Shown here one piece after another: positions 38,594 to 41,873 of a DNA stretch of 57,826 nt. The DNA comes from Bacteroidota bacterium. GTDB taxonomy: Bacteria; Bacteroidota; Bacteroidia; NS11-12g; UBA955. Numbering within the stretch: position 1 is the first letter of the stretch; the number at the start of each line of letters is the position of its first letter. The stretch covers positions 1 to 57,826 of the forward strand of contig CANMBF010000016.1 of assembly GCA_947496065.1 (NCBI GenBank), given 5' to 3'. The notes beneath the pieces were generated by a model. That model had not been told where the DNA came from, made no database searches, and saw nothing but the letters and a program-made list of their open reading frames with translations. A program made the position numbers and the translations under genes.

Positions 38594-40753
38594 TTATTTA
38601 AAAAACAACAAATCTCTGTATTTCGGTAATTTCCAAGAATCGTTGTCTATTAATTCTTCCAATTTATCTGCACTCTCTCTGATTTTTTCGAAGTAAGGTT
38701 TTACCTTGTCGCAATAAGCTTTTGCACGTTTATCGGCATGTGTTAAATTATTGGCTTTTTTGCGTTCTTCAATCATTTTATTGTTGTTATCCCAGATAGC
38801 GTTTACATTTTCTGAAATTTCTTTTGCAATTTCTTGTAATGATTTGGTGGCAGATTTCGCCTGACCAATTCTGCTCAATCCTTCGATCGCATCGACCAAT
38901 TGTTTTTGATAATTAACAGCCGAAGGAATCACATAATTTTTCACCAATTCACCTAGAATACGGCCTTCGATTTGTACTTTTAACAAGTAGTTCTCGAATT
39001 TAATTTCTGTTCTTGCTTCTAACTCTTTTGGCGTGAATATTTTATTGTCAATGAATAAATCATGGGTCTTTTTAGAATTGTAAGCATCTAAGGCATAAGG
39101 GGCAGTTTTAATGTTTTTTAAACCGCGTTTTGCAGCTTCTTTTACCCATGCATCGCCATAACCATTGCCTTCAAATAAAATGCGTTTGGTTGATTTTACA
39201 TAACCTCTTAAAATTTGTTCGATGGCTTCTGTTTTGCTTACTTTCTTTTTAATCAAAGCGTCAACTTCTTTTTTAAATTGGGCTAACTGATTCGCAACGA
39301 TGGTATTCAATACAATGATGGCATTGGCGCAATGATCGCTTGAACCAACAGCTCTGAATTCAAATTTGTTACCTGTGAAAGCAAATGGTGATGTTCTGTT
39401 TCTATCTGTATTGTCCAATAAGATTTCTGGAATACGGTAAACACTGATGGTTTTCTCGCTCACCTTGGTTGGTTTTTTTGCTGCCTTATCGCTTTCAAAT
39501 TGATTTAATACTTCTGATAGGGTTGAACCAATAAAGATTGACATAATGGCTGGAGGCGCTTCGTTAGCACCCAAACGGTGATCATTGGCAGCTGTTGCAA
39601 TACTTGCTCTCAACAAATCATCGTGGTCGTGTACCGCTTTAATGGTATTGATAAAGAAAGTAAGGAATTGTAAATTGTCTTGTGGACTGTGACCCGGAGA
39701 TAATAAATTAACACCTGTATCAGTAACGATCGACCAGTTATTGTGTTTACCTGAACCGTTGACACCTTTGAAAGGTTTCTCGTGCCACAATACTTTTAAG
39801 TTGTGTCTGTTGGCTACATTTTGCATTACATCCATCAACAATGAATTGTGATCGATTGCTATATCTGCTTCCTCGAACATGGGTGCACATTCGAACTGAC
39901 CAGGGGCAACCTCGTTATGTCTTGTTTTTAAAGGAATACCTAATTTCAAAGCTTCTTGTTCGAAATCGGTCATGTAGTTGTATACTCTGTCTGGAATGCT
40001 ACCGAAGTAGTGGTCTTCTAATTGCTGACCTTTCGCTGGCATATTACCAACAAGGGTTCTACCTGCAAATACTAAGTCGGGACGTTGGTTGTATAACTCT
40101 GCATCAACTAAGAAATACTCTTGCTCGATACCCAATGATACTTTGGTGTTTTTTACTTTGGTATCAAAATATTGGCAAACCTCGGTACTTGTTTTAGTAA
40201 GGAAGTTGGTAGATTTAATGAGGGGTGCTTTATAGTCGAGTGCTTCACCTGTGTAAGCAACAAAAACAGTTGGAATACATAAGGTTTTACCACTTGCTTT
40301 TTCCATGATAAATGCTGGAGAAGAAGGATCCCAAGCGCTGTAACCACGTGCTTCGAAGGTGTTACGAATACCGCCATTTGGAAAACTAGAGGCATCTGGC
40401 TCTTGTTGTACCAATGATTTACCAGAAAAAGATTCCATACCAGTATCGATACCTGTTGGATCGAAGAAGGCATCATGTTTTTCTGCAGTCGATCCGCGCA
40501 ATGGTTGGAACCAGTGGGTGTAGTGGGTAGCACCTTTGCTAATGGCCCAGTTTTTCATGCCTTCGGCAATTTGATCAGCCATTTTGCGGTCCATCGGTTT
40601 GCCTGTGTTTCTCGATTCTGTAACAGCTTTGATGGATTCTTTGCTAACGAATTCTGTCATGGCTTGTGGCCCAAAAATGTTTTCTCCGAAATACTCTGAA
40701 ATTTGTTTCATGTTTTTTCTTAAAGCGTTTTGTTGTTGAATTGATGAACCCAT
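38594..40753 (-). CDS. glnA: Glutamine synthetase type III
   Basis: A large GSIII enzyme (719 residues) making glutamine from glutamate, ammonia and ATP. HYTHWFQPLRGSTAEKHDAF, GIEQEYFLVD, FECAPMFEEADIAIDHN, WHEKPFKGVNGSGKHNNWS and RAVGSSDHCANA are GSIII-specific. GSIII is not controlled by the GlnE adenylylation seen in GSI. The start could also be the ATG at 40711. A near-consensus TACTTTCG box is at 40787-40794. It is divergent from a degenerate Fic-family gene across a short gap. Confidence 0.95.
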   Translation of the reverse strand: MGSSIQQQNALRKNMKQISEYFGENIFGPQAMTEFVSKESIKAVTESRNTGKPMDRKMADQIAEGMKNWAISKGATHYTHWFQPLRGSTAEKHDAFFDPTGIDTGMESFSGKSLVQQEPDASSFPNGGIRNTFEARGYSAWDPSSPAFIMEKASGKTLCIPTVFVAYTGEALDYKAPLIKSTNFLTKTSTEVCQYFDTKVKNTKVSLGIEQEYFLVDAELYNQRPDLVFAGRTLVGNMPAKGQQLEDHYFGSIPDRVYNYMTDFEQEALKLGIPLKTRHNEVAPGQFECAPMFEEADIAIDHNSLLMDVMQNVANRHNLKVLWHEKPFKGVNGSGKHNNWSIVTDTGVNLLSPGHSPQDNLQFLTFFINTIKAVHDHDDLLRASIATAANDHRLGANEAPPAIMSIFIGSTLSEVLNQFESDKAAKKPTKVSEKTISVYRIPEILLDNTDRNRTSPFAFTGNKFEFRAVGSSDHCANAIIVLNTIVANQLAQFKKEVDALIKKKVSKTEAIEQILRGYVKSTKRILFEGNGYGDAWVKEAAKRGLKNIKTAPYALDAYNSKKTHDLFIDNKIFTPKELEARTEIKFENYLLKVQIEGRILGELVKNYVIPSAVNYQKQLVDAIEGLSRIGQAKSATKSLQEIAKEISENVNAIWDNNNKMIEERKKANNLTHADKRAKAYCDKVKPYFEKIRESADKLEELIDNDSWKLPKYRDLLFFK

Positions 40754-41045
40754 GGTTTTTTTATTTTGTTAGTGCGAAAGTATTCTTAAGAAATTATAAT
40801 TGAATCAAATTGGGTATCAAAATTTAAATAATTATTGCAAAAATGATTAAATAAGGTGAAAAATATTAAATTATTCGACATATTTGTGCTAATAAATACA
40901 TAAAATTAAAAAACTAACTGACTATAGAATAGCAGAAAGCTACCAGATTTTAAAGGCTTTAACCGAAACTTGGAAAGCGATTTCCGAACTCAACGGATAC
41001 ATCAAAGCCGTTAAAAGTGATTTTAGCAATGCCGAGTTAAACTTA

Positions 41046-41873
41046 TTGTTTATATGTGAAGCTCGCAGCGCTATGGAGATAGATGGGTTTAATTTAGCTG
41101 CTATACGCGTATTTGAAGCCAATGCTTCTGAAAATAAATTGAATGATCCAACAGCTCAACTCATCTTTGAGATGGCTAATATTGGTCAAAATTTAAAACA
41201 AGTGAATGCCAATGCGCTGAGTTTGATTTTTCCATTTGTACAAAAAAGCAAGCGAAAGAAAGTACAATTGCCTGCATTAAAAAAGGAGATCAATGGCTAC
41301 TTGGAGGTTAATGCTGCGCCCGATGCATTGCTTTATATGGCTTTGTTGCATGGCTATATCGCGTTGCAAAAGGATAAATTGAATTATCAAGTATTTTTAG
41401 CCAATACCATTTTTAACCATTGGATGAAGGAGCAAGGTTTATTGGAATGGCCTATTTTGCCTATGTCTTTTACAATTAAAAATAATATCAAAAGAGCCGA
41501 TGAATTGCTGCAAGATGCTTTTGAAGCAGATGATTTACAAGGCTGGGTTTTATTTTTTCTTGGAATGGTTCAAACTTCTGCTATCACTGCGCAAAAGCAA
41601 TTAATAGAACTCACAACTTTGAAAAAAGTAACCAGAGAAATGATACTGAAGTATACCTTGTATCCTTTGCCAGCCAACACGCTTGTGAGTTTGTTATTTG
41701 AGAAACCCTTTATTAAGGCAGCTGATTTAATGTTAGCATTGAATTGTCATCGGCAGACGGCCGCCACTTACTTAAAGCATTTAGAAAGTATTGGGCTATT
41801 AATTGAGAAAAAATCAGGCAGGGAGAAACTCTATTTTCACAAGCGATTATTTGATGTTTTAATAGCGTCCTAG
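41046..41873 (+). CDS. Catalytically degenerate Fic-family protein with C-terminal winged helix
   Basis: The frame aligns by eye with SoFic-like Fic proteins. EARSAMEIDGF sits at the inhibitory-helix position. LPALKKEINGYL and ALLHGYIA precede the active-site position. LLEWPILPMSFTIKNN and GWVLFFLGMVQTSA follow it, and the end is winged-helix-like (NCHRQTAATYLKHLESIGLL). The HPFx[D/E]GNGR loop is replaced by residues of the ALQKDKLNYQ region, and the inhibitory Glu by Asp. The coordinates start at the only canonical codon (TTG 41046), but coding-like sequence (for example ESYQILKALTETWKAISELN) runs upstream in frame to ~40905 with no ATG, GTG or TTG. It may have an atypical start or be decaying. 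Confidence 0.65.
   Translation: MFICEARSAMEIDGFNLAAIRVFEANASENKLNDPTAQLIFEMANIGQNLKQVNANALSLIFPFVQKSKRKKVQLPALKKEINGYLEVNAAPDALLYMALLHGYIALQKDKLNYQVFLANTIFNHWMKEQGLLEWPILPMSFTIKNNIKRADELLQDAFEADDLQGWVLFFLGMVQTSAITAQKQLIELTTLKKVTREMILKYTLYPLPANTLVSLLFEKPFIKAADLMLALNCHRQTAATYLKHLESIGLLIEKKSGREKLYFHKRLFDVLIAS

Follow-up and report, generated by a model that had tools for sequence, protein, structure and literature searches.

The window, a stretch of 57,826 nucleotides from a Bacteroidota contig, encodes what appears to be a catalytically dead Fic protein of the SoFic type (here termed pseudo-Fic; 40905..41873, forward strand, 322 aa). This protein probably serves as an autoregulated, dedicated local transcription regulator of its neighbour, a type III glutamine synthetase (GSIII), which it would most likely activate. 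Five steps of this reading have support in the sequence: loss of catalysis, purifying selection, pairing with GSIII, an operator, and phased spacing between the operator and a predicted promoter.

By homology, the open reading frame encodes a Fic protein that is SoFic-type (class II) over its full length, as the original prediction had proposed. In Pfam searches the window protein passed the cut-off for SoFic-like_C (PF21248; 6.7e-16), scored only 0.052 for Fic_N and gave no match to the Fic core. The NCBIfam SoFic equivalog returned 86 bits with a cut-off of 550, and SoFic chains in the PDB were matched at 5e-16. When the five short forms described below were built into a profile and aligned with intact SoFics using hhalign, the alignment covered residues 11-322 with a probability of 99.8 and an E value of 1.9e-28, and this comparison favours the Fic family. 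An AlphaFold model made from three sequences only reached a pLDDT of 38.8. SoFic itself (SO_4266; PDB 3EQX, 3ZCN) shares the domain order, full-length homology and a related RQTA recognition helix. PDB entry 3EQX is titled transcriptional regulator; the SoFic paper treats the protein as an AMP transferase (PMC3667792). The recognition helix of the winged helix in the window protein is CHRQTAATYLKHL (41745..41783, forward strand), and the recognition-helix motif CHR(Q/H)TA is retained in 16/16 orthologs. Of the invariant columns of the pseudo-Fics, 18/23 lie in the C-terminal 84 residues, where the winged helix is located, whereas those of intact SoFics lie chiefly in the FIC core.

Orthologs were found in 16 of the 17 genus members by a search of 97 related genomes (G000-G096). 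The genus member without an ortholog, G011, has an incomplete genome and also yielded no GSIII match. High-scoring SoFics elsewhere in the phylum were considered as orthologs and rejected, the loop being intact in all 29 examined. In a tree with 36 intact Fic proteins the pseudo-Fics formed a single clade (support 100/100) on a stem of 2.5 changes per column. Five members are short forms lacking the flap (G000, G004, G006, G014 and G016) and eleven are long forms that possess it.

The divergent GSIII neighbour named in the original prediction (719 aa; 38594..40753, reverse strand) was confirmed, and GSIII is the immediate divergent neighbour of pseudo-Fic in 16/16 orthologs. Therefore, the link to glutamine synthetase (GS) is much stronger than first held. 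Downstream of pseudo-Fic, the neighbours of the short clade differ from those of the long clade. No pseudo-Fic homolog was present beside GSIII at 40 loci from other genera. In the closest outgroup, G022, GSIII is 79% identical and directly faces an ABC transporter with no pseudo-Fic in between; in the long clade that transporter follows pseudo-Fic. This layout fits either insertion of the Fic gene between GSIII and the transporter or its loss in G022. In many other genera of the family (L083-L105), the gene divergent from GSIII resembles a Kup-type potassium transporter, judged by its N-terminal sequence.

Just 5' of the pseudo-Fic start lies a 27-bp palindrome, TGTCGAAA-N11-TTTCGACA. Significance was assessed by shuffling the same stretch. 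The palindrome is matched at 14-16 of 16 positions in 12 genomes (all eleven long forms and G004), scores that were reached in 0-0.5% of shuffles. The putative operator of the window (40854..40880; AGGTGAAA-N11-ATTCGACA) matches at 12/16 positions, its half nearer GS having decayed; shuffles reach this score in 15%, and the site, not significant alone, was assigned by its position and by the relatives. The G006 palindrome likewise scores 12/16 and is not significant alone, that of G014 scores 11/16, and the G016 site was placed by eye. The upstream regions of 40 GSIII genes without pseudo-Fic scored 9-11/16. Genome-wide, near matches were about as frequent as with a reversed control pattern and lay mostly inside genes. 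One intergenic candidate in G007, at a lipoprotein gene followed by peptide transporters, was tried as a second regulon member; it proved not to be conserved across the genus and was therefore taken as chance. G007 also contains a near-perfect copy of the palindrome (L075, 2330-2356) with further TCGACA half-sites beside a HipB/HipA-like gene pair, which may reflect chance or another regulator.

The GSIII promoter was predicted with the Bacteroidota -7 consensus TAnnTTTG (PMC9723704). Every member carries a match on the GSIII strand, at 7/8 positions in the window, where the predicted -7 box (TACTTTCG; 40775..40782, reverse strand) lies 88 bp from the operator centre. This distance is 87-90 bp in 15 genomes (for G016, measured from the site placed by eye); in G002 it is shorter by one helical turn, at 78 bp. 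For most pairs, the spacers between operator and box are about as similar as shuffled sequences, and members differ in how far the operator lies from the GS coding region (143-196 bp). With a fixed operator-box distance and a variable GS leader, length changes are thus tolerated only in the leader. This suggests that a protein held to one face of the helix acts on the GSIII promoter. The spacing could instead be conserved through a constraint between two divergent promoters rather than through regulation of GSIII by pseudo-Fic.

The direction of control cannot be read from sequence, and a GlnR-like role as a GSIII repressor under ample nitrogen, through a roadblock of upstream sequences, looping or DNA bending, would accord with the repression by GlnR of its own glnRA operon (PMC9249791). 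This reading is considered rather unlikely: the only operator is upstream of the -7 box at a distance (about 88 bp) that is too great for the promoter simply to be occluded, and the anchored spacers showed no further site.

A possible -7 box for pseudo-Fic itself (CATATTTG; 40879..40886, forward strand) was predicted in the window by reading the sequence. In most long forms the operator overlaps a TAnnTTCG-like predicted box of pseudo-Fic, and in the long forms the start codon follows 4-6 bp further on. Because of this overlap and the closely following start codon, autoregulation of pseudo-Fic and a near-leaderless mRNA are suggested for the long forms.

The same palindrome, TGTCGAAA-N11-TTTCGACA, precedes the gene of intact SoFics from other Bacteroidota in 15/19 cases where the recognition helix is RQTA, four such SoFics being without it, and in 0/17 cases with other helices; these counts are not phylogenetically independent. 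It was located 5' of the start at loci L123-L136 and L140 (Bacteroidota intact SoFics) and at L169 and L174 (plasmids). Plasmid SoFics of Rhizobium and Martelella, with an RQAA helix, have palindromes scoring 13/16 and 12/16, which were reached by no shuffles and by 1% of shuffles, respectively. No palindrome of this type was found for Ilyobacter and Roseovarius SoFics. On the Ilyobacter polytropus plasmid pILYOP02, two neighbouring Fic family genes are convergent (L168, 1495-2565 and 3040-4053); upstream of the first, no such operator was found. As the palindrome tracks the RQTA helix, it is very probably the operator of the RQTA-helix SoFic family, and its presence before SoFics away from GSIII connects the winged helix with this site irrespective of GSIII.

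That a Fic-HTH protein can autorepress through a palindrome is known from experiments on CccR of Yersinia pseudotuberculosis, a class II Fic protein with a C-terminal HTH like pseudo-Fic: as a dimer, CccR represses its own gene by binding to a palindrome at the promoter (PMC9755527). A palindrome at the own promoter is found in the relatives of the window protein and is half decayed in the window. Unlike pseudo-Fic, CccR is catalytically active, secreted and not paired with GS, and its operator, AGATAATCAT-N26-ATGATAATCT, differs in sequence and spacing (PMC9755527).

Such autorepression, which intact SoFic relatives also seem to exert, might be the operator's sole function, with GSIII a passive neighbour and the cellular role of pseudo-Fic elsewhere, for example as partner or decoy for another Fic protein. 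The overlap of the operator with the predicted pseudo-Fic promoter, the occurrence of this operator upstream of intact SoFics located away from GSIII, and the three intact Fic proteins encoded in the window's genome are all consistent with this. We regard it as distinctly improbable, since it explains neither why GSIII is the partner in 16/16 orthologs when other neighbours change nor why the distance to the GSIII -7 box stays in phase across a scrambled spacer.

Enzymatic function appears to have been lost throughout the genus. In the window, the loop HPFDDGNGRTGR of intact relatives is replaced by KDKLNYQVFLAN (41370..41405, forward strand), in the place of HPFxxGNGRxxR, and no FIC loop residue is retained. 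This loop replacement had been stated correctly in the original prediction, which understates the case. The flap that should precede the loop is deleted. The HPFx(D/E)GNGRxxR loop with its catalytic His is absent from the window protein, and the His is missing in 16/16 orthologs, so that homologues with an intact loop at the same place number 0/16. The inhibitory site (41070..41087, forward strand) reads AMEIDG as predicted, replacing (S/T)xxxE(G/N), a motif that most long forms retain. The target-docking flap is gone in the window's clade, the five short forms. The eleven long forms have the flap YTNLTLYTAP, keep the loop Asn and the second Arg and in most cases the S-x3-E motif, and have Ala, Ser or Gly in place of the catalytic His. 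Flap and inhibitory motif are thus features that the long forms share with SoFic class II adenylyltransferases bearing a C-terminal winged helix. Unlike SoFic, the window protein has had all its catalytic loop residues replaced, the His is lost in every ortholog, and the gene is fixed beside GSIII. As the long forms also lack the His, AMP-transfer catalysis was most likely gone before the genus diversified, and the nucleotide pocket probably decayed further in the window's subclade.

With the catalytic His missing in 16/16, the earlier suggestion that AMP transfer connects the protein with GS is unsupported, and the evidence points to transcriptional control; the GS link itself stands. That pseudo-Fic still modifies GSIII as an AMP transferase or de-AMPylase through a non-canonical active site is highly improbable: the gene pairing with GSIII speaks for it, and against it stand a catalytic His in 0/16 orthologs, a window protein without any loop residue and a deleted flap.

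The reading frame runs without a stop through 40896-41873 (forward strand) and contains no ATG, GTG or TTG before codon 48. An N-terminal boundary, ATT-AAA-AA(A/G), is common to four species (the window, L034, L035 and L048), and the conserved ATT of G004 and G014 is preceded by an in-frame stop at a distance of two or three codons. Therefore, translation most likely starts at AUU (40905..40907, forward strand, in the window). The fifth short form starts with TTG, and the long forms with ATG or TTG. AUU starts outside infC are rare, and a low pseudo-Fic protein level would be expected. Between G000 and G006, dN/dS was 0.074 for the whole gene and 0.042 for the codons 5' of the first TTG, indicating purifying selection. 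The frame is open in 16/16 genomes; one stop was reported at the match edge in G016, where the 323-aa frame is nonetheless open. A decaying pseudogene, to which the lost loop, lost flap and non-standard start codon might point, is ruled out by the selection test and the open frames for practical purposes.

The earlier proposal that a Fic fold with a lost catalytic loop and an intact winged helix is a regulator is well supported by purifying selection, invariant columns lying mostly in the winged helix, the family operator and genus-wide GSIII pairing, with 16/16 homologues lacking the catalytic His and 16/16 divergent from GSIII. In the proposed course of events, a SoFic-type Fic protein autoregulated through TGTCGAAA-N11-TTTCGACA would have come to adjoin GSIII in the ancestor of the genus, lost AMP transfer and then become a dedicated local transcription regulator. 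Its winged-helix dimer would bind the operator, covering its own promoter (autorepression), and, positioned about 95 bp upstream on a constant face of the helix, would control the GSIII promoter, most likely by activation. The remaining Fic fold could serve as a body for dimerisation and sensing. The input is guessed to be contact with GS, as for GlnR and TnrA, or another ligand, rather than ATP; a nucleotide signal is unlikely in the window's subclade, which has no nucleotide pocket yet keeps the GSIII arrangement.

GS itself as the signal, after the GlnR circuit of Bacillota (PMC9249791), is an attractive guess. GlnR and TnrA are alike only in the way they work: a winged-helix regulator encoded beside GS controls it via a palindromic site (PMC9249791). 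They differ in being MerR-like, in acting on GSI rather than GSIII, and in lying in the same operon instead of divergently (PMC9249791). No MerR match was obtained with Pfam for the window protein, whose C-terminal winged helix is SoFic-like_C. Sensing of feedback-inhibited GS has been demonstrated for GlnR and TnrA (PMC9249791); for pseudo-Fic it would be a guess by analogy. P-II (PF00543) was detected in only 2/97 related genomes. As it is missing in the other 95, nitrogen sensing in the order works without P-II, and its absence was rejected as a genus-specific cause. Tentatively, in a lineage without detectable P-II, pseudo-Fic may sense GS or its metabolites and switch GSIII from the phased upstream operator, as an analogue of GlnR derived from a dead AMP transferase. 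By homology, pseudo-Fic belongs to the SoFic family; it lacks the defining adenylyltransferase features and would work like a local GS regulator.

No Fic-type regulator of GS was found in the literature covered, which was mostly without subscription papers and is not proof of absence, and no description of a GSIII regulator in Bacteroidota was found there. The present analysis provides a concrete protein, operator and promoter for GSIII control in Bacteroidota, open to testing. It also names a likely operator for a SoFic-type group for whose DNA targets no description was found. Pseudo-Fic would represent an enzyme that has become a transcription factor, and steps along the way are preserved inside one genus.
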